DNA from: a virus
Virus record (IMG/VR): IMGVR_UViG_3300020439_001829
Span: 1-55,883 of that record
Length of the DNA: 55,883 nucleotides
Strand: one strand, 5' to 3'
Made by a program: the position numbers and the translations under genes. Below the pieces are notes generated by a model. It saw only the letters and a list, made by a program, of their open reading frames with translations, was not told the origin of the DNA and did no database searches. Shown in pieces: positions 3,281 to 45,100 of the stretch. Position 1 is the stretch's first letter. Every line of letters starts with the position of its first letter.

Positions 3281-4136
3281 TTAAATCCTTTCCAAATTCT
3301 TCATACAACCTGTCATCATAACTATATGTAAATATCTGATAGTTCTTACTTTTCGTATGTAATCCGTATAAATCCCACTTCTCTGCAATCTCTATTGGAA
3401 TGTTTTCTTTTGGTATTGTTATTACTGGACAAGTACTCAACCCTATTATGTTTTCCTCTCCTATTGCATCAACTATAACCTTTGAATTCCTATCTATTCT
3501 ATCTCGTAACTCATGAATATCAAATCTTCTCAAAATAGTTAAAAAATGGTCATATATTTGTGTAGGTGTTGTTGTTGGTGTTTGGTTTATCAATCCATAT
3601 TCATAATATCTTCTGAGATTCAAGTAACTGAATTCATCTGAATCTTTCAATCGTGTCCAATAGTTTTTCTTTACACCAACTATTGCAAGACCTGGAAACC
3701 CACCTAATTGTTTATTAACACAAGTTACAAATATATTTGTGTTCTTTGGTATATCATAATATGGAAAAGAACTGATTGCATCAACTATTCCCTCGTCCTC
3801 GTAATAAGAACTATTAGAAGTTTCCAATTGACAATACAACTTCTCTCGATAGTATTTTGAAGAACCCTCTTTACCATGTGTTCTTATTAATTGTTCCCAT
3901 TTATTTTTAAAAATACCATCGTTACCTGTAATTCCTATCGGATTCATCAATGACCATACTACTGATTCTATTGCAGTGGTTCCACTACCACCCATGAATA
4001 TAATATCATAGTCTTTTAATTCAAACACTTCACTAAATAATAATTTTAAATCTTCGTAAGTATGTATAAACTCTCTATCTCTATGTGAATGTAAAACAAC
4101 ACTCTCTGTAGAAGTGGATGTATTAGGACCGAACAT
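3261..4136 (-). CDS. class V aminotransferase-like PLP enzyme (PhnW/SerC-like)
   Basis: A 291-residue protein. The N-terminal MFGPNTSTST matches the glycine/proline start of the PhnW-SerC group. GGSGTTAIES (49-58) is the phosphate-binding loop, and K142 in NKQLGGFPG is the likely Schiff-base lysine, in the place of the SNKCLEGVPG-like motif of 2-aminoethylphosphonate transaminase. It is about 70 residues shorter than PhnW. It sits between an ATP-grasp ligase and a HAD phosphatase with overlaps, so the three probably make or attach an amino-containing group. The exact substrate is not known. Confidence 0.7.
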   Translation of the reverse strand: MFGPNTSTSTESVVLHSHRDREFIHTYEDLKLLFSEVFELKDYDIIFMGGSGTTAIESVVWSLMNPIGITGNDGIFKNKWEQLIRTHGKEGSSKYYREKLYCQLETSNSSYYEDEGIVDAISSFPYYDIPKNTNIFVTCVNKQLGGFPGLAIVGVKKNYWTRLKDSDEFSYLNLRRYYEYGLINQTPTTTPTQIYDHFLTILRRFDIHELRDRIDRNSKVIVDAIGEENIIGLSTCPVITIPKENIPIEIAEKWDLYGLHTKSKNYQIFTYSYDDRLYEEFGKDLNETVMG

Positions 4137-5214
4137 ATTCTTTTAATTCCTTATACACTAAATCAAAATGATTATTTTTATCTAACCAATTATTATAATA
4201 CATTGGTATTTCTTTTTCTAAAACACTTTTGTTTTGTTGTAAGAACATAACAAGGTTTGGGTCACTTGGATTATAAAATGGTGGATGATAACCACACCAA
4301 CCAACTTGTGGATAACCAGATGCATATGTTGGTTGTACTTCAAGAAAACATAACTCTTTTGTATCTTCATCCATAACCACATCTACTCCTTGATGATTTA
4401 ATTTTAGTGAATGTACTGCCTTCACTATTTCTTCTTCTCTTTCTCTCATCAATTGTTCACATAATTTATTATAGTAAACCCAATTATCAATCTGTTCTGG
4501 TCTGAAACTACCTGCAGTTATTGCCAACCAATTATCTTTTGGAACCACTCTACCATAACCTGATATCACTTTGTTACCTGCAACATGGATTCTGTAAGAT
4601 ACATTTACATCTCTATCAATCGTGTTTACAAAATTTACACACATCATTCTTCTTTTGATTCCTACTTCATTTTTACCATGTATCATGATATCATGTAACG
4701 CAGGTTTTATTTCTTTTTGTTCTCTAATGATATGAGTTTCTTTTCCACCAACTGAATTATTTACTCTGATTAAAAATGGAAAATCAAATTCTGCAACACT
4801 TAATTTTTCATAAAACTCTTCTTCCGTATCGTAAACAAAAAAATCTGGACAATTAACTCCATGTTTTTTCCACTCTTGAAAACATACCTCTTTAGATTGT
4901 ACTGCCTCAAATCCTTGAACTGAATTTGTTAAGTATGGCATTGTTTTTAGATATCCCAACTCATTATTAATATATTCATTTTGTTTTATCATACCATTGT
5001 ATTCTTCTTCAGTACATGATTCTGGACAAGGATACCAACGAATATATTCTATAGTATCTTTATACTCTTTGAATGCATCATAAACACTATGTCCATCTTC
5101 ACCATTCACATCAAGAACTGGCCCAAAATGTTTTTCCATATTTTCTTTTTCAAAAATTCTCCAATTCTTTGGTGGTTTACTTGGACCTCTATTTGCTGCT
5201 ATAACTTTATACAT
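4123..5214 (-). CDS. ATP-grasp ligase-like protein
   Basis: A 363-residue protein with the ATP-grasp layout. FPFLIRVNNSVGGKETHII (about residues 145-163) fits the lysine/glycine-rich ATP-binding strand and loop. GVDVVMDEDTKELCFLEVQP near 280-300 gives the acidic metal-binding strand, with E and Q where the family has E and N. Such enzymes join a carboxylate to an amine or thiol through an acyl phosphate. It overlaps the downstream aminotransferase by 14 nt, which suggests that the two act in sequence on one modification. The substrate is unknown. Confidence 0.7.
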   Translation of the reverse strand: MYKVIAANRGPSKPPKNWRIFEKENMEKHFGPVLDVNGEDGHSVYDAFKEYKDTIEYIRWYPCPESCTEEEYNGMIKQNEYINNELGYLKTMPYLTNSVQGFEAVQSKEVCFQEWKKHGVNCPDFFVYDTEEEFYEKLSVAEFDFPFLIRVNNSVGGKETHIIREQKEIKPALHDIMIHGKNEVGIKRRMMCVNFVNTIDRDVNVSYRIHVAGNKVISGYGRVVPKDNWLAITAGSFRPEQIDNWVYYNKLCEQLMREREEEIVKAVHSLKLNHQGVDVVMDEDTKELCFLEVQPTYASGYPQVGWCGYHPPFYNPSDPNLVMFLQQNKSVLEKEIPMYYNNWLDKNNHFDLVYKELKEYVRS

Positions 5215-5926
5215 CTACCCACTCCCCCACTAATTCTTCGAAACCGCGTTTAAATACTCGATTGTGAAAATCCTCTTGTGGTGTTTTTGCATACCTACTG
5301 CTTTTGAAATGTACAATGTGTGAACCCCAAAACTTTGCCTCTTCAAGATTACCATAGGCAGCGAGTAATCTCTCTTGTTCTATTCCGATTACATACTTAT
5401 CATTATTCAATACTAAATGATTCAACGATGGTGATTCTTTTGGTATATCTCTCCATTGATTCATAATGTAAATCCAATCATCAATAAACTCAATTCCTTT
5501 TTGTAAATTGTTTACTGCAAACCATGATGCAATATGTCTTGGTTCTTTATCTCTATGTACAACTTGTACATCACAATCTGATTTTAAATACTGATGGAAA
5601 TCACTTACAAAATATGAATCCAAATCAATCATCACTACAGGTGATTCTGAAACTGAACATACACTTCGAAGTAATCTTGTTTTTTGAGTAACACTTTCTA
5701 ACCAATCCTTATCATGTAATTGTGTGTTCTTTGTAATCTTACCTGAATTGATTAATTTAACTTTCTTAAATTGTTTTAGATACTCTTTATCTCTCTCATC
5801 AATACCAGTATCACCCACCCAAATTGTATCAATCTCATCAAGAGTTAAATTTTGATGTAGTGAATTAAAAAATATTCTACCGAAGTTACTATAACCTGAA
5901 TTCATTATTGTGAATATACTATACAT
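5207..5926 (-). CDS. GT-A glycosyltransferase
   Basis: A 239-residue protein with first strand MYSIFTIMNSGY and the DxD motif in VVMIDLDSYFV near residue 100. A GT-A fold of the GT8-like or nucleotide-diphospho-sugar transferase type is likely. A late WGSHIVHFK segment resembles the C-terminal His motif that helps bind the metal in GT8 enzymes. It overlaps genes on both sides by 8 nt. Sugar and acceptor are not determined. Confidence 0.7.
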   Translation of the reverse strand: MYSIFTIMNSGYSNFGRIFFNSLHQNLTLDEIDTIWVGDTGIDERDKEYLKQFKKVKLINSGKITKNTQLHDKDWLESVTQKTRLLRSVCSVSESPVVMIDLDSYFVSDFHQYLKSDCDVQVVHRDKEPRHIASWFAVNNLQKGIEFIDDWIYIMNQWRDIPKESPSLNHLVLNNDKYVIGIEQERLLAAYGNLEEAKFWGSHIVHFKSSRYAKTPQEDFHNRVFKRGFEELVGEWVDV

Positions 5927-9450: not shown

Positions 9451-9451
9451 T

Positions 9452-10765
9452 TTACGCCTTTTTCAATTTTGGTAATTTAATTTCACTTGGTTTACTATCT
9501 TCTACTTTATTTAATTTAGGTAGTTTCAACTCAACTTGTTTTGGTACACTCTCTAATTGTTTTTCAATAATCTCTTCTAACTTAACTTTCATTGCCTCAA
9601 GTGAGAATTGTTTAGATGTTACTGCTGCCAATTGTTTACCTTTTAATAAATATTTAGAATAGTTACTTACCATATCTTTCATGATACTACTTGCAACATT
9701 ATAATTGACTGTGAACCACTTATTTTCAGGTGAATCAAAAATCACACCCTTTTGAAACGATTCTTTTGGTACCGTTGTTAAACTACCATTTAATAATATA
9801 GAATAGTTTGGATTCAAGAAATCTAATTGTCCACTCCAACCTGGAGCAACTACTGGTTTACCACTTTGTGCAGCCTCTAACAATGGTCTTCCAAATCCCT
9901 CACCATGTGTGAAACTGATATGTGCTTTTACTTTAGGATGATTATATAAATCATTCATTTCACTATCTGTAAAATCACCATGAATCACATAAACATTTGG
10001 AAGTTCACCTTGTATACTATCTGTAATGGTTCTAACTTTTTTCAAGATATCTTCTCTATCCAAGATACTAAAATCTGCACCACTTGTTTTTAAGATAAGT
10101 GCAGGTGGATTTTTTTGATTCTTGAATGTTTCACAAAATACCTTAACCAACATACCAGTATCTTTTCTATCCTGTCCAAGATTTCCTTGTAACCAATGTC
10201 CTACAAATAAGAAACCAAAATCTTCTTTCACATCATCAAACAAACTATTTACATCATCTGATATTTTTTTAGTTTGTTTATAGATATCTGTATCTACACC
10301 CTCAAATAGTATTGAAGAATCTCTTTTCATCTTTACTTCTTTTCCATTTTTATCTTGGAATGATGCATTCAGAAAAACATTTCTTGTAAAATCTGATACG
10401 AATATGGTTTCATCCATTTTATTACAACCATCAACCCATTGTGGTAATGGTATTGTAGTTTCGATACCTGCAGTTACACCGATATTCTTTTTTGCAATCG
10501 GTTGAAATTCATTTGGTATCACAATATGTAAATGTACATCTGGTTGTGTAGGTAACTTTGGTTCCATCAATATCCTTTTTGATATCTCATCATGTTTTGG
10601 ATTACCCTCTTCTAACGCAGTCATTGGTGTTGCACCCCATCTAACTGAATTAATATGAACATCATATTTATCCAACTCAATCAATGCAGTACATATATCT
10701 CTTGCATGGTTTCCATAACCACTTCTTGTTTTTACTGGTGCTGTAACTAATATACTTGGTTTCAT
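9452..10765 (-). CDS. GT-B glycosyltransferase (GT4-like)
   Basis: I place the start at the ATG at 10765, after TAAGGG and immediately behind the upstream stop; a longer open frame enters the upstream gene. The product has 437 residues. KTRSGYGNHARDI is the N-domain glycine loop, and EGFGRPLLEAAQSGKPVVAP is the classic GT4 C-domain E(x7)E donor-binding motif. The C-terminal tail carries two KLPKL motifs, and the same pentapeptide occurs at the N-terminus of the protein encoded just upstream. Donor and acceptor are unknown. Confidence 0.85.
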   Translation of the reverse strand: MKPSILVTAPVKTRSGYGNHARDICTALIELDKYDVHINSVRWGATPMTALEEGNPKHDEISKRILMEPKLPTQPDVHLHIVIPNEFQPIAKKNIGVTAGIETTIPLPQWVDGCNKMDETIFVSDFTRNVFLNASFQDKNGKEVKMKRDSSILFEGVDTDIYKQTKKISDDVNSLFDDVKEDFGFLFVGHWLQGNLGQDRKDTGMLVKVFCETFKNQKNPPALILKTSGADFSILDREDILKKVRTITDSIQGELPNVYVIHGDFTDSEMNDLYNHPKVKAHISFTHGEGFGRPLLEAAQSGKPVVAPGWSGQLDFLNPNYSILLNGSLTTVPKESFQKGVIFDSPENKWFTVNYNVASSIMKDMVSNYSKYLLKGKQLAAVTSKQFSLEAMKVKLEEIIEKQLESVPKQVELKLPKLNKVEDSKPSEIKLPKLKKA

Positions 10766-10766
10766 A

Positions 10767-12200
10767 TTATCCCTTATAAATGTTGAATTTTTTTCTTGGT
10801 TCAAACTTTTCAAATGCAGTTTCCATATGTTCATAGAATAACCTACACATATTTTTTGCACTCATATTTGAATCTGTACTCTTTACGAAATAGTGTCCTT
10901 TGATACCACACTTTCTTCTTTCATCTTTACCCATCTCATACCACTCTTTTAATTTATCTGCGGCATCTTCCCAATCACATCTGTCATCGAAAATATATGG
11001 TGTTGGAACTGAACCCATTAAAGAACGAGTCTTAGGCCAAACTGGTTTCACCCATTCACCCCAAGTTAGTTCTTCATTGTGTTCCCAATTTTTCCAATTA
11101 TGTAGTGATTTAATCGCACCATAATCTCTGTAGGTTAATAGTTTATCTCTTACTTTAAATCCACATTGGTCTTGCATACCACCTGTAACATTAACGATGA
11201 TTGGTGTTCCTGCCATCAATGATTCACAAGTTCCTAATCCAAATCCCTCATTACTTGCAAGATTCATAGTTACATCTGCAATGTTATATAGGTAATTCAT
11301 TTGTTTGGCTTCTAACTTCTGTTGTGAGAATACTACATTGACCTCTGGCATTAAGTGTTCAATTAGTTTAGGTAAATCTGTTCCGTTTTGGTCTACGGGT
11401 TGAGTGTGCATTACATAAGTAACTCTACTTCTTTTCTCTGGTGGTAATTGATTTACAAAGTGTTGAAATGCCAACAATGAATCACCAACCATTTTTCTTC
11501 TGATATTTCTGTTCACATATAGTAAAACAAAATCATTAGGTCTGTTACCAATTACTTGATTCTTAAATTTTCTCATTTCCAATAACTCTTCTTTTTCTGT
11601 TATTGGATAAAAATCTTTTTCATTAATACCATGTGGTACATATGTTGAATCCCATTCTGTTCTTGGTTTATTTGTACACACATCTTGTACAATTGCATGA
11701 GTTTGTTTTGAAATATTCATAATCAAATCACAACTCTCATAAAAGAATTCATTATACTTTGGTGCAGGCCAATCATCCCAAATATTATAATAGAAGATAG
11801 GAATCTCTTGTCTTAACTCATGTTCCATGTGATATAACCATCCCCAAAATCTTGGGTCTGTATAGTGTAGAATTGCATCTATATTTTCAATTCTCATAAC
11901 TTCTCTTAGTAAATCTGGATTACCATATCCACTCGTAGGATAGATTTTTAAATATGCATCAGTTACACCAGTCTCTTCAATCATGGTTTGATTCATATCT
12001 ATTGCCTTACCCTCTTCAGGATGTTTGATAGCACCAGCGATTTGTACCCAATCGTACTTATCGATAGTTCCCATTACGATTTCTTTTGACATCGTACCAA
12101 CACCAGATGACATTCTTAAATCATCTGATAATAGTAATATTTTTTTCTTCTTCGGTCTTGTTGAATCAACTGACTGTAACTTTGGTAATTTCATTGCCAT
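10767..12200 (-). CDS. GT-B glycosyltransferase (GT4-like)
   Basis: A 477-residue protein. RMSSGVGTMSKEIV is the N-domain loop and NEGFGLGTCESLMAGTPII the C-domain donor-binding motif with the two Glu residues. The N-terminus MAMKLPKLQSV contains the KLPKL motif found twice at the C-terminus of the next transferase. Conserved YNIWDDWP and VPHGIN segments support a GT4 fold. It starts the transferase run, 20 nt after a small ribbon-helix-helix candidate. Confidence 0.85.
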   Translation of the reverse strand: MAMKLPKLQSVDSTRPKKKKILLLSDDLRMSSGVGTMSKEIVMGTIDKYDWVQIAGAIKHPEEGKAIDMNQTMIEETGVTDAYLKIYPTSGYGNPDLLREVMRIENIDAILHYTDPRFWGWLYHMEHELRQEIPIFYYNIWDDWPAPKYNEFFYESCDLIMNISKQTHAIVQDVCTNKPRTEWDSTYVPHGINEKDFYPITEKEELLEMRKFKNQVIGNRPNDFVLLYVNRNIRRKMVGDSLLAFQHFVNQLPPEKRSRVTYVMHTQPVDQNGTDLPKLIEHLMPEVNVVFSQQKLEAKQMNYLYNIADVTMNLASNEGFGLGTCESLMAGTPIIVNVTGGMQDQCGFKVRDKLLTYRDYGAIKSLHNWKNWEHNEELTWGEWVKPVWPKTRSLMGSVPTPYIFDDRCDWEDAADKLKEWYEMGKDERRKCGIKGHYFVKSTDSNMSAKNMCRLFYEHMETAFEKFEPRKKFNIYKG

Positions 12201-12868: not shown

Positions 12869-13286
12869 CATTCCTCTTTTGTTTTTTGACTGGTAATTGT
12901 TCACGATTAATAAAATCCCAAATACTTTTTGCCTCTTCTAATCCTTTGAGTATACCCTCTCTTGTACCATATCTCCATTGATACCTCCAATATGATACCA
13001 TATTACCCTCATATAAATGTAATAAACTCTTTGGTATAAAATCCCATGTTGTAAAATCTCTTGAGTTATCAAAAAAATAAGGTCTTATCGTTGTAGAAAA
13101 ATTTGAGTGTTCTGTAGATTGCCAATCATCTGTAAATTTTTTAACTTCTTTGGTTGATAACTCACCCTCACTATACCAAAAATAAATTTTAGATGGATTC
13201 ATGACATTAAGTTTTTGACTAATTTCTTCTATCTTATCTAACTTAATGATATCAGGTAAATAAAATTTATATGTTTGTCTTATCAT
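12843..13286 (-). CDS. hypothetical protein
   Basis: A 147-residue protein rich in Trp, Tyr and charged residues (IYFWYSEGELSTKE, VSYWRYQWRYG). It has no signal peptide, membrane segment or recognisable domain. It starts 4 nt inside the end of the nuclease gene and overlaps the start of the SLOG gene, so it is translationally linked to both. Function is not recognised. Confidence 0.6.
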   Translation of the reverse strand: MIRQTYKFYLPDIIKLDKIEEISQKLNVMNPSKIYFWYSEGELSTKEVKKFTDDWQSTEHSNFSTTIRPYFFDNSRDFTTWDFIPKSLLHLYEGNMVSYWRYQWRYGTREGILKGLEEAKSIWDFINREQLPVKKQKRNDGEDSDYR

Positions 13287-21724: not shown

Positions 21725-22124
21725 TTTTACCCCACTTGATAATATTCCAAACTCTTTCATGAACATAATGTGTAACAATAAATGCAATGTTACTATATAT
21801 TGTCCACTCTAAAGATGAACTATTATCTAATCCTAAGGCCTTTCCTATAAAGAATAGTACTATGAAAGAATAAACTCTCCAAGTAATTGTTTTAACAATA
21901 CTTCTTCGTTTGCTATCACTTTCATTTAATCTATCCCAATTAACACGATTCCAAATATATTCATGTATAAGATAACTTACAAACCCTATCGTATAACTTG
22001 CAACTACTAATTTCAATGCAAATCCACTACCATATCCTAACAGAGAAGATAGTAAAAATATCGAAAGTAATCCTGCAGTTCTATAACTTAAGGTTTTAAC
22101 TATTGTTCTGTAATTTTTATCCAT
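21714..22124 (-). CDS. membrane protein with two DUF2061 units
   Basis: A 136-residue protein. VKTLSYRTAGLLSIFLLSS and VKTITWRVYSFIVLFFIG begin two similar halves, each with two hydrophobic segments and ending in an H/E-x-x-W-N pattern (YLIHEYIWN, THYVHERVWN). This is the DUF2061 pattern, here duplicated within one chain. It would lie in the host inner membrane. In bacteria DUF2061 genes sit near sulfate-activation genes, which may link it to the APS-kinase-like gene; the role is unknown. Confidence 0.75.
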   Translation of the reverse strand: MDKNYRTIVKTLSYRTAGLLSIFLLSSLLGYGSGFALKLVVASYTIGFVSYLIHEYIWNRVNWDRLNESDSKRRSIVKTITWRVYSFIVLFFIGKALGLDNSSSLEWTIYSNIAFIVTHYVHERVWNIIKWGKSEV

Positions 22125-29099: not shown

Positions 29100-31850
29100 T
29101 TAGAAATTAACAGTAACTCCAATGTTTGCATATCTTGGTGTTCCTAAGAATACCTCAGCGTTATGTGGAGCGTGTACTTTATCACCCCAACCATTGTATT
29201 TACTATTATCAACTGCATCTTGTATAAAGATATCATCAAGAGCATTGAAGATATGACCTGTTAAGGCAATATCGTATCCCTTGATAGGTAATTTATATGA
29301 TGCATGTAAATCAAGTTTTGAGTAACCTGGAGCTTCCCAAACTTGTGCTCTATCGGCATCACCCTCAACCTCACGAGATTCAGGTGACCAATCAGCGTAG
29401 TTTCTATCATATGTTTTGTATAGTGCCTGTAATCTTAAACCTTTAATTGGTTTGTATGTCAAACCTAAGATATAAGATGTTTGTGGCATATCACCAACAT
29501 ATAATCCGTCAAGTGCATAAGAGTATTCTGTAGTAGTTACACCAATTACTTGGTTATTATCATTATACTCTTGTTCTTGGTAAGTACCATCTGCATCACC
29601 ATCGAACTTCCAATTACCATATGAGGCAATAAAATCAAGTTCAATTTTATCAGTAGGTTTCACTTTTGTTTCAAGTTCTAACCCTTGATGTTTTTGGTTA
29701 ACACCTGTTAGGAAGATAATATCAGTATCACCTGATGAACCTTGACCTGTTTGTACAGATTTAGTAAGGTTTCTATCTTTCCAATCAGTGTCGTATGCAC
29801 TTACTCTCACACCAACTTTTTCAGTACCCCAATTTACACCAACCTCATTATGTAAGAATTTCTCATTATCTGGGTCGGTTGCAACGGTACCATCATAGTA
29901 GATAACATTATCTAATATTGGAGCCTTTTGAACATATCCACTATTAACGAATAGTCCAAGATTCTCATTTACATTATATAATGCACCACCTTTAACTTGG
30001 TATGTTGAGATTGGGTCTGCTTTAACATGATTATCAATTTCATTACCATTTTCATCTACATTAACCGCGAAATGGTCTTCGTATGAATATGTAATACTTG
30101 ATATTCCTGCCATACCATATAGATTTAATTTATCAGCAGTGTAATTGAATTGACCAAATCCACCAATCCAATCTACTGTGGTTTCATTATGATATGCAAT
30201 GATATCTCCGAGTTTTACTACTTTACCCTCTTCAAAATTATCATCTGCATAATCAACATAATAATCACCACCTAATAAATCACGAACTTCACGAGCGTGT
30301 TCTATACGAGCAGTTCTCCAATCAATACCTGTTTGTAATTCTAACTCATCATTAACTTTGTAATTTAGTTTAGAAATCAAACCATATGTATTCTGTCTGT
30401 TGATAGAGTTTCTCAAAATACCTGTTGAACGATTTTCTGATACTGAGAAGTTCTCATCGATGTTATCAGAATTCTGAGCAATTTCAGCATTCCAATCCCA
30501 CATCCACGGTGAACTTGCATACCATCTTTCTCCCTCAACTGCTGGTGTTCTTGATACACTACCATATGTACCAGTACCACCACCTGAACCACCACTCCAA
30601 TATGCGACAGATGATATTCCAATCTTATCGTTAATTGTTAAAAAGTGATTTAGGTTCACTAATGGTTTATGGAAGAAGTTTTCTCTTTCGTTCAAGAAGT
30701 TTTTAGAGAATCTGTCTGTTGTTCTTGCACCATACATATACCAATATTGTTTACCTGTATATGATGGGTCAACTGGTGCCCAATTCTGATTGTAAAATCT
30801 ACCAGCTTCAGTTTCGAATTTGTTACCATCTGCAAATGCATCGGTATCATATCCATCAATACTACCAGCTAACTCTTGTGAGTATGTAGCAATATTCTGT
30901 TTGTATAGATTTTGACCATGTCTTTGTGGAGCACCGACTGCATAAAGCTCGAACCTTTGGTCTTCACTTACTGCATAACTACCACCAAAGTAGTATGCCC
31001 AAGCATCAGTCCAAGTTCCATCGATTATTCCATCACCAGTTTTACGAACTATCGTTCCACTCAAAGCCAACTTGTCTCCAATTAGACCTGTGTTGTAATT
31101 GAAAGTAGTTTTAAGAAAACCACCTCCACCTGCTTCTTGTTTGAACTTTCCACCTTTCTCAAAAGATGTTGGGTCGGTTATGATATTCATTGTTCCACCG
31201 ATTGATGGTGTTGCTAGGTTTACTGCTGATAGTCCTCTTTGAACCTGAATAGATGATGTAGCATCTCCTACTCCGTCCCAGTTAGACCAGTATACCCAAC
31301 CATTTTCCATATCATTTTGTGGAACTCCGTTTATCATCACTGCAACATTTCTTTGATTAAAACCACGAATGTTGATACGAGCATCACCCGCACCACCACC
31401 TTGTTGAGTTGCATATACACTTGGTGTTGTGTTAAGAATCATTGGAATATCTTGAGAACCAAGACGAATTTCCATTTCTTCTTTACTAACATTAGTGTAT
31501 GCAACAGGTGTTGTTTCAGATGCACGAGATGCTAACACCTCAACATCTGATAGTCCCAAGTAACTAAGTTCTAATACGAAGTTAACACTTGAAACTATAT
31601 CTTCAACAACTACTGATTTAGTTACTGAAGAAAACCCTATGAAAGAAGCAGTTACATCATATGTACCTGATGGAACATCGATTTTAAAAGCACCATCTTT
31701 ATCAGATACTCCTCCTAATTCAGTTCCTACAACTACGATATTAGCTCCCTCAAGTGGTTGTGAGTCAACATCAGTAATAACTCCAACTAAAGATTGTGCG
31801 AACAATCCCGTCATCATCAATACTGATGCAATAAGATTACGATATTTCAT
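29100..31850 (-). CDS. TonB-dependent receptor, full length
   Basis: The start is the ATG at 31850, six nucleotides behind AAGGAG. The 916-residue product has a signal peptide (about 1-19, ending GLFAQ), then a carboxypeptidase-regulatory-like domain (VGVITDVDSQPLEGANIVVV). A plug domain follows, with INIRGFNQRNVAVMINGVP and IQVQRGLSAVNLATPSIGG, and then a long beta-barrel ending in the outer-membrane signature VTVNF. All parts are intact and in order. Such receptors import siderophores, vitamins or glycans. Finding one between phage nrdJ and polymerase genes is unusual; recent gain from the host is likely. Confidence 0.93.
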   Translation of the reverse strand: MKYRNLIASVLMMTGLFAQSLVGVITDVDSQPLEGANIVVVGTELGGVSDKDGAFKIDVPSGTYDVTASFIGFSSVTKSVVVEDIVSSVNFVLELSYLGLSDVEVLASRASETTPVAYTNVSKEEMEIRLGSQDIPMILNTTPSVYATQQGGGAGDARINIRGFNQRNVAVMINGVPQNDMENGWVYWSNWDGVGDATSSIQVQRGLSAVNLATPSIGGTMNIITDPTSFEKGGKFKQEAGGGGFLKTTFNYNTGLIGDKLALSGTIVRKTGDGIIDGTWTDAWAYYFGGSYAVSEDQRFELYAVGAPQRHGQNLYKQNIATYSQELAGSIDGYDTDAFADGNKFETEAGRFYNQNWAPVDPSYTGKQYWYMYGARTTDRFSKNFLNERENFFHKPLVNLNHFLTINDKIGISSVAYWSGGSGGGTGTYGSVSRTPAVEGERWYASSPWMWDWNAEIAQNSDNIDENFSVSENRSTGILRNSINRQNTYGLISKLNYKVNDELELQTGIDWRTARIEHAREVRDLLGGDYYVDYADDNFEEGKVVKLGDIIAYHNETTVDWIGGFGQFNYTADKLNLYGMAGISSITYSYEDHFAVNVDENGNEIDNHVKADPISTYQVKGGALYNVNENLGLFVNSGYVQKAPILDNVIYYDGTVATDPDNEKFLHNEVGVNWGTEKVGVRVSAYDTDWKDRNLTKSVQTGQGSSGDTDIIFLTGVNQKHQGLELETKVKPTDKIELDFIASYGNWKFDGDADGTYQEQEYNDNNQVIGVTTTEYSYALDGLYVGDMPQTSYILGLTYKPIKGLRLQALYKTYDRNYADWSPESREVEGDADRAQVWEAPGYSKLDLHASYKLPIKGYDIALTGHIFNALDDIFIQDAVDNSKYNGWGDKVHAPHNAEVFLGTPRYANIGVTVNF

Positions 31851-31892
31851 AATCATCTCCTTGTTGTTTACTTGTGAATGACACATTTTTAT

Positions 31893-37838: not shown

Positions 37839-38594
37839 CTACGAATTGAATAATTCATCAAAGGCATCACCAGTATTACTTACTGATTTTGCACTTGAGA
37901 TTTCTGAAGCAGAAACACTTTCAGTTTCTTCCTCTTTAGATTCCTCTTCGTTTGGATTTAACCATTCATTCAGAACTTCTGTCAAGTCTTCATAAGATAG
38001 TTCTTGATAGATTTCCTTAATGTCTTGTTGAGTTTTAACTCTTTCAAGAACTTCAGGTTCATCTGAAATAGGTGTTTGATTAGGTTTTACACGAATGTTA
38101 GTTTTTGGAAAACTAGCACCACTTTCTTCAGCAGTGATAAATTCTACAACTACATCTCTTCCATTGACTGGGTCTGTGATATCACCATAGTCTGGGTCTG
38201 CGATAATTGATAATAGTTCTTGATAAACTGTTTTACCAAAGCCCCAAAACTTAACACCTTGAGATTCTTCTCCTCTAACTACTACTGGAGCAAAAGTTCT
38301 CATTTTTGCCTCAAGTTTTCTTGACAACTGATAATCTTCTTTACTACCTGAACCTTTTAGTTTTTGAGCAAACTCTTCGATAGGGTCTGGTCTACCAAAA
38401 GATATTGGTGATAAATAAGAACGGTTGTTCAAATTGTAGTGAAAGAATAATTCAATAAAAGGATTATCTTTATTGAAAGCGTAAGGAACGATTCGAATCT
38501 GAGTTTTACCTGGTTGTGGTTTCCAAAGACTGGAAGTACGATTGTTTGTGGTCTGTAACTGATTTAATCGTTTTTTAATTGCGTTTAAGTCCAT
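37839..38594 (-). CDS. 32: single-stranded DNA-binding protein (T4 gp32-like)
   Basis: A 251-residue protein. The N-terminal MDLNAIKKRLNQLQ matches the basic N-domain of gp32 in T4-like marine phages, SLWKPQPGKTQIRIVPY begins the OB-fold core, and KFWGFGKTVYQELLSI is the typical late core strand and helix. The tail is acidic (NEEESKEEETES) and ends DAFDELFNS, as in gp32 partner-binding tails. The zinc Cys/His set of T4 gp32 is not seen. ATG follows GAGGAG. Confidence 0.88.
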   Translation of the reverse strand: MDLNAIKKRLNQLQTTNNRTSSLWKPQPGKTQIRIVPYAFNKDNPFIELFFHYNLNNRSYLSPISFGRPDPIEEFAQKLKGSGSKEDYQLSRKLEAKMRTFAPVVVRGEESQGVKFWGFGKTVYQELLSIIADPDYGDITDPVNGRDVVVEFITAEESGASFPKTNIRVKPNQTPISDEPEVLERVKTQQDIKEIYQELSYEDLTEVLNEWLNPNEEESKEEETESVSASEISSAKSVSNTGDAFDELFNS

Positions 38595-38712
38595 TATTAA
38601 CTCCTCATTGTTTATGTTTATTTGTCATTTATTATTGGTATCATTTCTCGATACAGTAATAAGTATAACCTTTGTTAGTAAAAATGTAATCTTTTTTCAT
38701 TATTTTAAAAAT
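38595..38712 (-). promoter_or_regulatory. leader region of the gp32-like gene
   Basis: This 118-nt AT-rich stretch separates the terminator at 38713-38780 from the gp32-like start. On the minus strand it contains GGTTATACTTATTACTG, a possible -10 region, and ends in a GAGGAG ribosome site. Because a terminator lies directly upstream, an own promoter for the gp32-like gene is expected here; the -35 box is not clear. Confidence 0.45.
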
Positions 38713-38780
38713 AAAAAATGGCCATCTTGTTTTTAAGTTTGTAAGTATAGTGGAAACTAAAAATCGTGTGGCCATTTTTT
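38713..38780 (-). terminator. long hairpin terminator closing the RNA candidate
   Basis: On the minus strand AAAAAATGGCCA (38769-38780) pairs with TGGCCATTTTTT (38713-38724), a 12-bp perfect outer stem ending in six T, followed by more T. Inner segments (GATTTTTAGTTT and AAACTTAAAAAC) also pair. It is the best rho-independent terminator in the window and is probably active in both directions. Confidence 0.8.
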
Positions 38781-39215
38781 AAATATTTAAATTGGAAATC
38801 TTGGGGATGTGAGATTAACGATTACTCACAACTTGAAGCTCTGATTTATTATACCTTGTACCTAACATCTTTCAGTTACGAAAGTGATTCTCAGAATGGT
38901 TAGTTCCATTGAATCGAGTACAACCTCTATGCCATTGCCTTAACTCTCAGAGTTTAGTTTAATTCAGCCATAAAGTGGGATTTCAGTTTTACCCTTACCC
39001 ACAACAAGGTCAACAGAATCGTTCTGTTATTTTTTCTTCAAGTACATTAGATTATTGATGTCTCAACTACCGAAATGATTTACACCTAAGTAGGTTCACC
39101 ACGAACTAATCATGGATTGCTTTATGGGCTTCCGAAGTGTACCCATTATTCAGCCAATCCCATACAGAGTTAATTACTCTCTGTACTTTCCGATTTCTCA
39201 ATTGTCAAAGAACTT
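38713..39215 (-). ncRNA. candidate large structured non-coding RNA (about 0.5 kb)
   Basis: No reading frame of useful length exists here, and the base composition is less AT-rich than other intergenic DNA. On the minus strand at least ten stems can be drawn. ACAGAG/CTCTGT lies at 39184-39164, GGATTG/CAATCC at 39160-39114 enclosing ATGGG/CCCAT with a CTTCGGAAG tip, and ATGATT/AATCAT at 39113-39075 enclosing ACCT/AGGT. AACAGAA/TTCTGTT lies at 39028-39012, GTGGG/CCCAC at 39002-38975 and AACTC/GAGTT at 38954-38942. TTGTAC/GTACAA (38923-38856) encloses GATTCAATGG/CCATT..GAATC and CTTTC/GAAAG; GTGAG/CTCAC lies at 38829-38809. A loop CTAAC (in 38910-38895) can pair with GTTAG (38866-38862) as a pseudoknot. 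An AT promoter-like element lies upstream and a strong terminator ends it. The class is not recognised. Confidence 0.7.
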
Positions 39216-39221
39216 AATCTT

Positions 39222-39242
39222 ACATATATATATATGTATATA
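39222..39242 (-). promoter_or_regulatory. AT-rich palindrome before the RNA candidate
   Basis: ACATATATATATATGT (39222-39237) is a perfect 16-nt palindrome that runs into TATATA. It lies a few nucleotides upstream of where the structured RNA candidate begins and could be its promoter or an operator. The same type of element occurs at 12433, 26472 and 41015. Confidence 0.45.
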
Positions 39243-39249
39243 AATTCCC

Positions 39250-39273
39250 AAAATGTAATTTATTTTACATTTT
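39250..39273 (-). terminator. hairpin at the end of the GHKL gene
   Basis: AAAATGTAA and TTACATTTT form a 9-bp stem around six nucleotides and include the stop codon of the GHKL gene. The last T run gives a terminator-like end on the minus strand. The 17-nt half AAAATGTAATTTATTTT recurs at 41045, at the end of the next gene upstream. Confidence 0.55.
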
Positions 39274-40923
39274 TTTCATTTTTTTTGTTTGATTCTTCTT
39301 TGCTACTTCTTGAACTTTATTTTCATCAATTTGTAACTTTGAAAAATCAACACAAACGAATTCAGTATCGAACTCTTTATTCCATGCTTTGAATTCGTTG
39401 TTGACACTGTCTTTAAATCCACGAGCCACTACTACAATCCTATCGACTTTACCACCTCTATTCATGTAGTATCTAGCAACTTGTGAAATCACTGCAGTAT
39501 CTGCTATCTCATCTTTGATTTCTACTAATGCAACATAATTATCATCATCTTCATAAGTGAAATCAGGTATTGATGAAATATTTTGCTTTTCATGTGATTG
39601 GTTTTCTTCAATATCTTCTACTGAGATATCTTTACCATAAACCAACTTACGAAATGCATCACCTACAATATCATCGATTCTCATCTGTTCATCAAACGCA
39701 TCATGCCATTGTGTTTCCTTGACATCTGATGGTTCAAATCCCTTATGAGTTTCAACCCATGGCTTGATTTGTCTTTTCAACTCATCCTGCCATGCCTTAT
39801 CGAATCCATTCTTTGTAGTGTTTGTTGGAATAACATAATCTTTAGGTACATCTATCTCAACAAATAAACCATTGAGATGTGCCAATCCACCATCTCTCTC
39901 TGATTTCTTTAATTGAATAGTTCCTAACAAAATATCATTCTGATAAACATACAAAGTAGGTATTGCAGATGGTGCGTACTTTCTTGTAATCAGATTACGA
40001 TTTCCTAATGATGTAGTAATCTCTTGTTCAATTGCAGAAAGGTGTCTACCGAACTTTACATCAAAATCGGTAGTCTTTGGAACTAATTGATTATCATCAA
40101 GATAATCTTCATAACCCCACTTTGTTATAACATTCCAAGTGTTATTCTGAGTATCCTCATAACCAACACCAGGTTGTTTCCAAGAATCATCTTGGACATC
40201 TCTATTGTTTAAAAAGAATTCTGCTGGTTGCAATATTCTTTCTAAAGTTTTATTTGATTTGTGTAGTCTCCAAGTAATCTTTACTCTACCACTCTTTAAC
40301 AGACGATTATATCTTGCCTGCATTGAACGATACCAAGTATTCTTAGTAGGATTCCACCACTCTTTAACGAACTTGGATGTGTTTACATTTGTAATCTCAA
40401 CCATAGTTCCATGTGTTGAATTTACAGGTGATAACTCATATTGGAATTGTTCCTCTGTTAAATCAACATCTTCCATTCTTGGAACTTCTCCATCATTATA
40501 AACAACAGAAGATTCGAATCCATCATTTAATCCAATCTCATTGGTAACCACTCTACCTGGTTCACCAAGATAATTAGTAAACTGATTGTATCCTAATCCC
40601 CATCTTGAAGTTCCACCATTTACAATCTTAGTTTTAGAATCTACCGCAGTAGTTACATATAACTTAGTTGCAACAGTATCTTTACTCATACCGATACCAT
40701 TATCATATATCTTAATAGTATCTGGCATTGTAGTTCCATTAGGTGCAAAGAATTCAATCACTACCTCTCTGACATGGTCTTCAGGTAATCTTGGGTCATC
40801 TAATCCAATGAAACAATTATCGACAGCATCTTCAAGGGCATTATATGCAGCTCCATATCCTGCTCCTTTAAATGATTTATAGACATCTGATGTGATAACC
40901 AGATTCTTTTTGTTGATAGCCAT
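39265..40923 (-). CDS. GHKL ATPase with C-terminal PD-(D/E)XK-like motif
   Basis: A 552-residue protein with a strong AGGAGG ribosome site. The GHKL fold is shown by Glu31, Asp35 and Asn36 (ALEDAVDNC), D74NGIGM79, the glycine loop TSRWGLGYNQ (about 105-114) and HGTMVEITN. A transducer-like middle domain follows (about 200-380). At the C-terminus PDF (453-455) and VEIK (467-470) with a downstream ISQVARYY helix give a PD-(D/E)XK nuclease pattern. It resembles MORC- or MutL-type ATPases more than topoisomerases. A DNA-binding, ATP-gated nuclease is a reasonable guess; no known gene matches. Confidence 0.75.
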   Translation of the reverse strand: MAINKKNLVITSDVYKSFKGAGYGAAYNALEDAVDNCFIGLDDPRLPEDHVREVVIEFFAPNGTTMPDTIKIYDNGIGMSKDTVATKLYVTTAVDSKTKIVNGGTSRWGLGYNQFTNYLGEPGRVVTNEIGLNDGFESSVVYNDGEVPRMEDVDLTEEQFQYELSPVNSTHGTMVEITNVNTSKFVKEWWNPTKNTWYRSMQARYNRLLKSGRVKITWRLHKSNKTLERILQPAEFFLNNRDVQDDSWKQPGVGYEDTQNNTWNVITKWGYEDYLDDNQLVPKTTDFDVKFGRHLSAIEQEITTSLGNRNLITRKYAPSAIPTLYVYQNDILLGTIQLKKSERDGGLAHLNGLFVEIDVPKDYVIPTNTTKNGFDKAWQDELKRQIKPWVETHKGFEPSDVKETQWHDAFDEQMRIDDIVGDAFRKLVYGKDISVEDIEENQSHEKQNISSIPDFTYEDDDNYVALVEIKDEIADTAVISQVARYYMNRGGKVDRIVVVARGFKDSVNNEFKAWNKEFDTEFVCVDFSKLQIDENKVQEVAKKNQTKKMKKM

Positions 40924-44498: not shown

Positions 44499-44691
44499 TT
44501 TTCTTCTCCTTAAATGTTATTGTTACCTATATTGTACAATAAGTGTACCAAAGTGGCCCATTTTTGGAAAAAAAATTAAAAAAGTTTTAAGTGTTAATAT
44601 TACTTAATTTGGATGTGCATAAAAAACTACTCATATGAGTAGTATTTTAAGTGTTGAATTTTGTTACAATTAATCTATGTAACAGGTGTAA
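44499..44691 (-). other. 193-nt intergenic region before the pilin genes
   Basis: It holds the terminator at 44621-44643, then A/T-rich DNA, the palindrome ATTGTACAAT (44531-44540) and an AAGGAG ribosome site. A promoter for the pilin genes is expected here because a terminator precedes them, but no good -35/-10 pair is seen. Confidence 0.5.
44621..44643 (-). terminator. rho-independent terminator
   Basis: On the minus strand ACTACTC and GAGTAGT form a 7-bp stem around ATAT, followed directly by TTTTTTA. It lies about 50 nt after the stop of the gene ending at 44692 and isolates the pilin genes from the upstream operon. Confidence 0.8.
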
Positions 44692-45099
44692 CTATTTGTT
44701 CCATTCTGTAACATCTACGATTTGATGTATCTTTGTAGGTACTACATTCAATCCTGCCTCATTTGTTAGTAGTAATGTGTTTTGGAACTCACTCCAATCA
44801 ACATTAAATCGTTTATCTAATACTCCATTGTTCTTACTTCTGATAACTTGATTCAATGCATTGATTGTATAAAGTGTATTTGATTGTTTTTTTCTATGTA
44901 GTGAGATTGTGTTCTCAATATTTTCTTCGTAGTTATCCACTAACTCAATATTATATGTACAGATTAATTGAGTTAAATCATCTTGATTTTGAAAGATATA
45001 AATTTTATCATATAGAATTTCATTACAAGATATAATGATATCTACGGTTTCATTTAGTCTTGATTGTCTTGTGAATGTACATAGTAATTGTGTTTTCAT
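44692..45099 (-). CDS. conserved-type phage protein of unknown function
   Basis: I start it at the ATG at 45099, one nucleotide after the upstream stop; the open frame extends to 45174. The 135-residue product starts MKTQLLCTFTRQSRL and has NTISLHRKKQSNTLYTINAL and DKRFNVDWSEFQNTLLLTN. The pattern recalls a short protein shared by T4-like marine phages, from memory and without certainty. No catalytic motif is visible. A good terminator follows. Confidence 0.6.
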   Translation of the reverse strand: MKTQLLCTFTRQSRLNETVDIIISCNEILYDKIYIFQNQDDLTQLICTYNIELVDNYEENIENTISLHRKKQSNTLYTINALNQVIRSKNNGVLDKRFNVDWSEFQNTLLLTNEAGLNVVPTKIHQIVDVTEWNK

Positions 45100-45100
45100 A

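Follow-up and report, generated by a model that had tools for sequence, protein, structure and literature searches.

A double manA RNA with two interlocked units upstream of gp32 in a phage genome

The manA family and other structured phage RNAs

Since 2010, the manA RNA (Rfam RF01745) has counted as a probable riboswitch in cyanophage metabolism, with neither ligand nor function assigned. In the passages on manA of Weinberg et al. (2010, PMC2864571), it is placed in potential 5' UTRs and considered a riboswitch candidate, while the section of the Rfam 14 paper that concerns it (PMC7779021) gives 48 significant base pairs for the corrected alignment. The single form measures ~190 nt. Its P4 is a local helix, the apical loop of which is complementary to the P5 loop (CUGU/ACAG, by eye). 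The cyanophage-type manA is present as a single copy in 40/40 matched records (89-197 bits), and psbA was found in 4 of 7 single-manA records. Just upstream of the RNA, a sigma-70-like promoter match is seen in 60/61 loci, compared to 45/320 random windows. A terminator follows in only 16/64 loci and many cyanophage manA RNAs could therefore be 5' leaders. The genes downstream look like thyX, talC, hsp20 and gp32 (named by eye). A terminator-like hairpin, ACCTAAGATGCAAC...GGGCAGATGGTCTT, recurs after the single manA in L240, L247 and L253.

Other described systems are relevant as well. Tandem riboswitches, e.g. the glycine riboswitch, contain two related aptamer-like units per transcript, with contacts between the units. 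In T4 gene 32, a small pseudoknot in the leader of gp32 serves as the autoregulatory element. GOLLD and ROOL are large, ornate non-coding RNAs, some of which come from phages. The RNA discussed here resembles the latter two in size and complexity, but has no Rfam match to either. It also consists of two related units with inter-unit contacts, as in tandem riboswitches; here, however, the units jointly form an entire helix as well as a pseudoknot, and a terminator and a second promoter-like block part the RNA from the next gene. With the T4 leader (PMC535899), it has in common that a structured RNA lies upstream of a gp32 gene; the difference is its location upstream of both a terminator and gp32's own promoter-like block.

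The analysed DNA (the window) is the complete stretch of 55,883 nucleotides of IMG/VR record IMGVR_UViG_3300020439_001829. Between an ORF of 552 amino acids and the gp32 gene, a gap without ORFs (38713-39215) is found on the coding strand (Table 1). The gap had been noted as the only large one, which agrees with the overlapping minus-strand ORFs that fill 9451-10766, 12905-13282, 21788-22124 and 44499-45100 (664-1036 was left out). It had also been described as less AT-rich than other spacers, and the local GC content is indeed 36-38% across 38800-39199, compared to 23-29% in the flanking spacer.

An Rfam search returned two manA matches in this gap. The match to the 3' unit reaches 58.8 bits and exceeds the gathering score of 55.2, while the match to the 5' unit covers the full model length at 39.1 bits (E=2.9e-10), below this cut-off. 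Since the two matches overlap by 32 nt, corresponding to one common hairpin, the stretch represents a single RNA in which two manA units are combined. A large structured RNA is indeed present. As a double manA, it belongs to a known family rather than to a new class, which the original prediction had thought possible. It had rightly been kept apart from GOLLD and ROOL, as neither is matched by Rfam in the window, whether at the gathering score or at E-values up to 5. A blastn search of the RNA region against annotated phages gave no match, and no tRNA or tmRNA was found in the window.

All manA hallmarks are present in the double RNA, namely H1, P1, P2 with CUGAAUAA...UAAGG, the three-hairpin P3, P4 and P5, and each is either supported by covariation or invariant. 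Two interlocked units in one RNA of ~430 nt, instead of a single unit, are a variant trait and no reason for exclusion from the family. The double form further differs in that it nearly always has a terminator and belongs to phages that lack psbA and probably infect Bacteroidota, not to cyanophages.

Table 1. Features of the double manA locus; all lie on the minus strand of the window.
Feature	Position	Strand	Evidence
Double manA RNA, conserved core of ~430 nt	38785..39214	-	End-to-end alignment of 91 distinct homologues
Unit A (5' manA unit)	38972..39185	-	RF01745, 39.1 bits
Unit B (3' manA unit)	38804..39003	-	RF01745, 58.8 bits
P1	GGGAU 39161-39157 with AUCCC 38808-38804	-	100% paired (91 sequences); two-sided change at one pair
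P4, long-range helix	ACUUGAAG 39043-39036 (unit A) with CUUCAAGU 38838-38831 (unit B)	-	98.6% paired
Pseudoknot PK1	AACGAUU 39023-39017 (unit A, P4 apical loop) with AAUCGUU 38823-38817 (unit B, P5 loop)	-	93% paired
Pseudoknot PK2	CUCUGA 38952-38947 (P2b loop) with UCAGAG 38844-38839	-	100% paired
Promoter-like block upstream of the RNA, ATTACATTTTGGGAATTTATATACATATATATATATGTA	39221..39259	-	Sequence pattern; putative promoter activity
Terminator hairpin with U tract, interior UUUUUAGUUUCCAC...AAACUUAAAAA	38713..38780	-	Hairpin scan
gp32 promoter-like block past the terminator, ATTACATTTTTACTAACAAAGGTTATACTTATTACTGTATC	38650..38690	-	Pattern scan, ATTACA-17-TATACT
gp32, single-strand DNA-binding protein gene	37839..38594	-	Pfam PF08804, PHROG 1192
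Upstream neighbour, 552-aa protein	39265..40923	-	GHKL-like motifs (DNGIGM), by eye

The interlocked fold and its relatives

The fold was assessed in an alignment of 91 distinct full-length sequences. Covariation was compared to a null in which the same substitutions were replayed on the tree, using our own reimplementation of the tree-based test and not R-scape. The fold comprises 118 pairs in 23 helices, of which 95.4% are standard pairs over the 91 sequences; shifting one side by 1-3 columns lowers this to 37-42%. Two-sided changes occur at 80 of the 118 pairs. At E<0.05, 23 column pairs covary significantly, all 23 of them inside the fold and standard in at least 98% of the sequences, and they include the two pseudoknots and the long-range helix. 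(In an earlier run, with 46 sequences, 6 pairs were significant, each of them Watson-Crick in at least 98% of the sequences; the enlarged set has superseded it.) The minus-strand, multi-stem structure that had been predicted is thereby borne out in its homologues.

Single-sequence folding is modestly better than that of shuffles, with z-scores of -2.8 and -2.9 for the two strands. The expectation for the minus strand thus stood only in part: the plus strand folds equally well, and for that reason the folding energy alone is no proof of an RNA. There is no conserved reading frame in the 91 cores, in which the longest stop-free frame has a mean of 59 codons (minimum 39, maximum 145). A large, complex phage RNA without a reading frame had been proposed, and that is what the 118-pair fold in 91 homologues describes.

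Unit A consists of H1, the P1 5' strand, P2a, P3a, the P4 5' strand, the P4 apical hairpin and P5a. Unit B is composed of the shared hairpin (P5a/H1b), P2b, P3b, the P4 3' strand, P5b and the P1 3' strand. P1 surrounds both units and P4 spans them: the 5' strand and the loop of P4 come from unit A, the 3' strand of P4 and the P5 loop from unit B. In P4, 6 of the 8 pairs show two-sided changes and 2 pairs are significant (E ~1e-4). The pseudoknot between the P4 apical loop and the P5 loop, also a manA trait, is formed between the units in the double RNA (PK1, one significant pair, E=0.004). These inter-unit helices, P4 and PK1, rank among the best-supported of the fold. PK2, with significant pairs at E=2e-4 and 0.016, joins the P2b loop to the strand directly 5' of P4. 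In our reading, a tandem duplication gave rise to this arrangement, with the closing elements swapped. Exchanging a helix and a pseudoknot between tandem copies of one RNA domain would be an uncommon route to a larger RNA.

A pseudoknot had been expected and is present, albeit elsewhere than proposed. The suggested pairing of CTAAC with GTTAG lacks support, as GTTAG shares nucleotides with the 3' strand of helix P3b (core nt 345-350). That helix is 99% paired and shows two-sided changes. The proposed pairs are standard in 74-100% of the sequences and show almost no two-sided change, so that P3b was preferred.

The least-supported elements are the 3b-a stem (78% paired) and the P4 apical stem (59% paired), both in places where the lengths vary. 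An outer helix P0, formed by UUGAGAAAUC and GAUUUCCAA, may join the ends of the RNA. Its complementarity amounts to 9.1, compared to 5.8 for shuffled sequences and 8.3 for swapped partners; P0 is likely, plausible but unproved by covariation. For the 5' hairpin that precedes the core, a stem of at least 6 is found in 43/61 sequences versus 32/61 shuffled ones, a weak signal because the region is AT-rich.

Relatives were collected with two sequence patterns. The pattern of the junction hairpin occurs in 86 viral contig stretches, and its exact form is absent from 84,980 bacterial and archaeal genomes. Searching with a unit A pattern adds further relatives, with 73 complete, genuine occurrences and one extra match by chance (L392). 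The junction hairpin is recognizable in 71 of these 73 and slightly altered in L354 and L374. In double-manA records of up to 132 kb, the manA model matches sit in one place per record, where matched at all, and the reported matches score 19-73 bits, compared to 89-197 for the cyanophage single form. tRNAs lie near 3/30 single manA loci and near 0/36 of the double loci checked. No manA was found in the nearest isolates, Microcystis phage Mel-JY01 and Flavobacterium phage immuto. The passages on manA in the literature searched offered no description of a double form.

Flanking elements and the phage genome

The AT-rich, promoter-like block that had been noted just upstream of the RNA has counterparts elsewhere: a block like ATTACATTTTGGGAATTTATATACATATATATTAATGTATC is found in most of the 44 loci listed, with few that differ, and often has a hairpin after it. 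In L281, L296, L327 and L195, a larger element, ACGAGTCGA...TCGACTCGT, takes the place of the small 5' hairpin upstream of the RNA. This element has a conserved interior, AAGATGTTAAGTCATCACTGCAAG...GAGACTACTGG, and no Rfam match (L281, L296, L327). Another extra element, of the type TTGGAAAGTATCCTTACAGAATTAAAG, occurs 3' of the RNA in L281, L327, L195, L353, L356, L363 and L373, and sits before the usual terminator in L281 and L327.

The hairpin predicted to end the RNA recurs throughout the group. A terminator-type hairpin is present within 170 nt downstream in 79/87 double loci, compared to 1/87 shuffled flanks. Its outer stem varies yet stays paired, while the interior is conserved in many loci. 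No conserved alternative pairing of the terminator arm with the RNA body was found above the control (5.2 nt versus 5.4 nt with the arms of other loci).

Past the terminator, gp32 is preceded by its own promoter-like block, which is related to the block upstream of the RNA. Matches of the ATTACA-17-TATACT type are in general not enriched over shuffles. Of 5 RNA-less relatives checked, 4 also have a block like that of gp32 in front of this gene; a sixth locus, L137, is not counted, as the pattern there matched the promoter of the RNA itself. The gp32 leaders of the double-manA group (window 38595-38690) open with a small hairpin, GTATC...GATAC, after which comes an unstructured, A/T-rich stretch, a layout that recalls the autoregulatory leader of T4 gp32.

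The downstream gene of the double manA is always on the same strand. In 43/51 loci it is gp32, at a near-constant ~145 nt. The remaining loci have another gene next, a gene inserted before gp32, or a contig end; the former two cases are represented by L274, L308, L315, L316, L334 and L335. In L137 the RNA has been lost between promoter and terminator, both of which are kept, and gp32 is intact. The upstream neighbor differs among relatives. In the window, gp32 is where it had been named, while the GHKL assignment of the 552-aa protein depends on motifs, with no Pfam or PHROG match; NCBIfam gives a weak hint of a NucS-like nuclease region (443-509, E=0.007).

A marine member of the Bacteroidota is the probable host. 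In the window, gp32, recA, 5'-3' exonuclease and DnaB are arranged in the order seen in Flavobacterium phage immuto, and psbA is absent from all 21 double-manA group records tested, the window included. Furthermore, the phage genes for DNA polymerase and ribonucleotide reductase flank the gene for a 928-aa protein (29100-31886, minus strand) with CarboxypepD_reg-like and TonB Plug domains, which resembles the N-terminus of SusC/RagA outer-membrane proteins. Receptors of this type are known from Bacteroidota. It is these three features that point to Bacteroidota; the closest gp32 among isolates belongs to a Microcystis phage (52%), and the assignment therefore remains inferential. Elsewhere in the window (4123-5926 and 9452-12200, both minus strand), two adjacent glycosyltransferases are encoded, together with RimK-like and nucleotide-sugar transferase-like proteins, which suggests a glycan-modification island.

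Proposed function

We consider it somewhat better than an even chance that the double manA stands alone as a phage RNA that acts in trans and carries one binding module twice. Transcription of the ~0.5 kb RNA would start, separately from gp32, at a putative phage promoter near 39221-39259 and would end at the terminator hairpin (38780-38713). The two tandem units swap the P4 helix and the loop-loop pseudoknot, and P1 would close the whole into one compact particle. Each manA module, i.e. the P2 internal loop (CYGAANAA/UAARGYAAU) and the three-hairpin P3 junction, could then be presented in trans to a protein or metabolite partner. This would presumably take place in the replication phase, when the neighboring gp32-recA-exonuclease-helicase genes are used.

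The stand-alone RNA is favored because of the terminator, the separate promoter-like block of gp32, the lack of antiterminator pairing, the changed downstream genes and the one natural loss. As a counterpoint, a downstream gene on the same strand, usually gp32 at ~145 nt, fits a cis-acting leader too. In that case, which we regard as possible but doubtful, the RNA would be a tandem aptamer or protein-binding leader of gp32 with the terminator as expression platform, and a ligand or gp32 itself would decide on read-through into the replication genes. Such a leader is favored by the steady placement of the RNA ahead of gp32, which comes next on the same strand in 43/51 loci. Rfam types manA as cis-regulatory, it was placed in potential 5' UTRs in 2010, and some cyanophage single manA RNAs precede gp32 as well (L239, L252, L256 and L259, gp32 by eye). 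Moreover, according to PMC535899, T4 gp32 autogenously represses the translation of its mRNA. A gp32 leader is, however, difficult to reconcile with a gp32 promoter-like block past the terminator that is common to relatives without the RNA, or with the absence of a conserved antiterminator pairing. The loci with an additional gene ahead of gp32, or with another gene in its place, and L137, which kept gp32 without the RNA, also speak against it.

That the two units are merely independent tandem manA RNAs, each folding and acting alone to increase copy number, is improbable. Infernal does align each unit to the full model with local pairing for each, but the matches share one hairpin, a single P1 encloses both units, and P4 and PK1 covary across them (174:378, 175:377, 191:395). 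In addition, the 5' signature of unit A is almost always accompanied by unit B. A DNA-level element, such as an origin or a recombination site, would suit the adjoining gp32, recA/uvsX, exonuclease, helicase and polymerase genes and the ability of both strands to fold. It is nevertheless highly improbable, as G-U pairs are used at many positions (e.g. P2b 249:276, 3a-a 112:118 and 3c-b 331:346), manA is an RNA family, and the terminator with its U tract is strand-specific.

More speculatively than for the stand-alone RNA itself, and rather against the odds, the manA family as a whole could be a trans-acting phage RNA and not a riboswitch. The double form would then be a domain-swapped particle of Bacteroidota phages that binds two partner molecules in replication, for example a host or phage nucleic-acid protein.

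For the family, the double manA suggests that it is not simply a riboswitch for the sugar genes of cyanobacterial phages. With an interlocked, separately terminated double form in phages that lack psbA, located beside replication genes, the expected function of manA moves away from mannose and photosynthesis genes and towards a stand-alone phage RNA.
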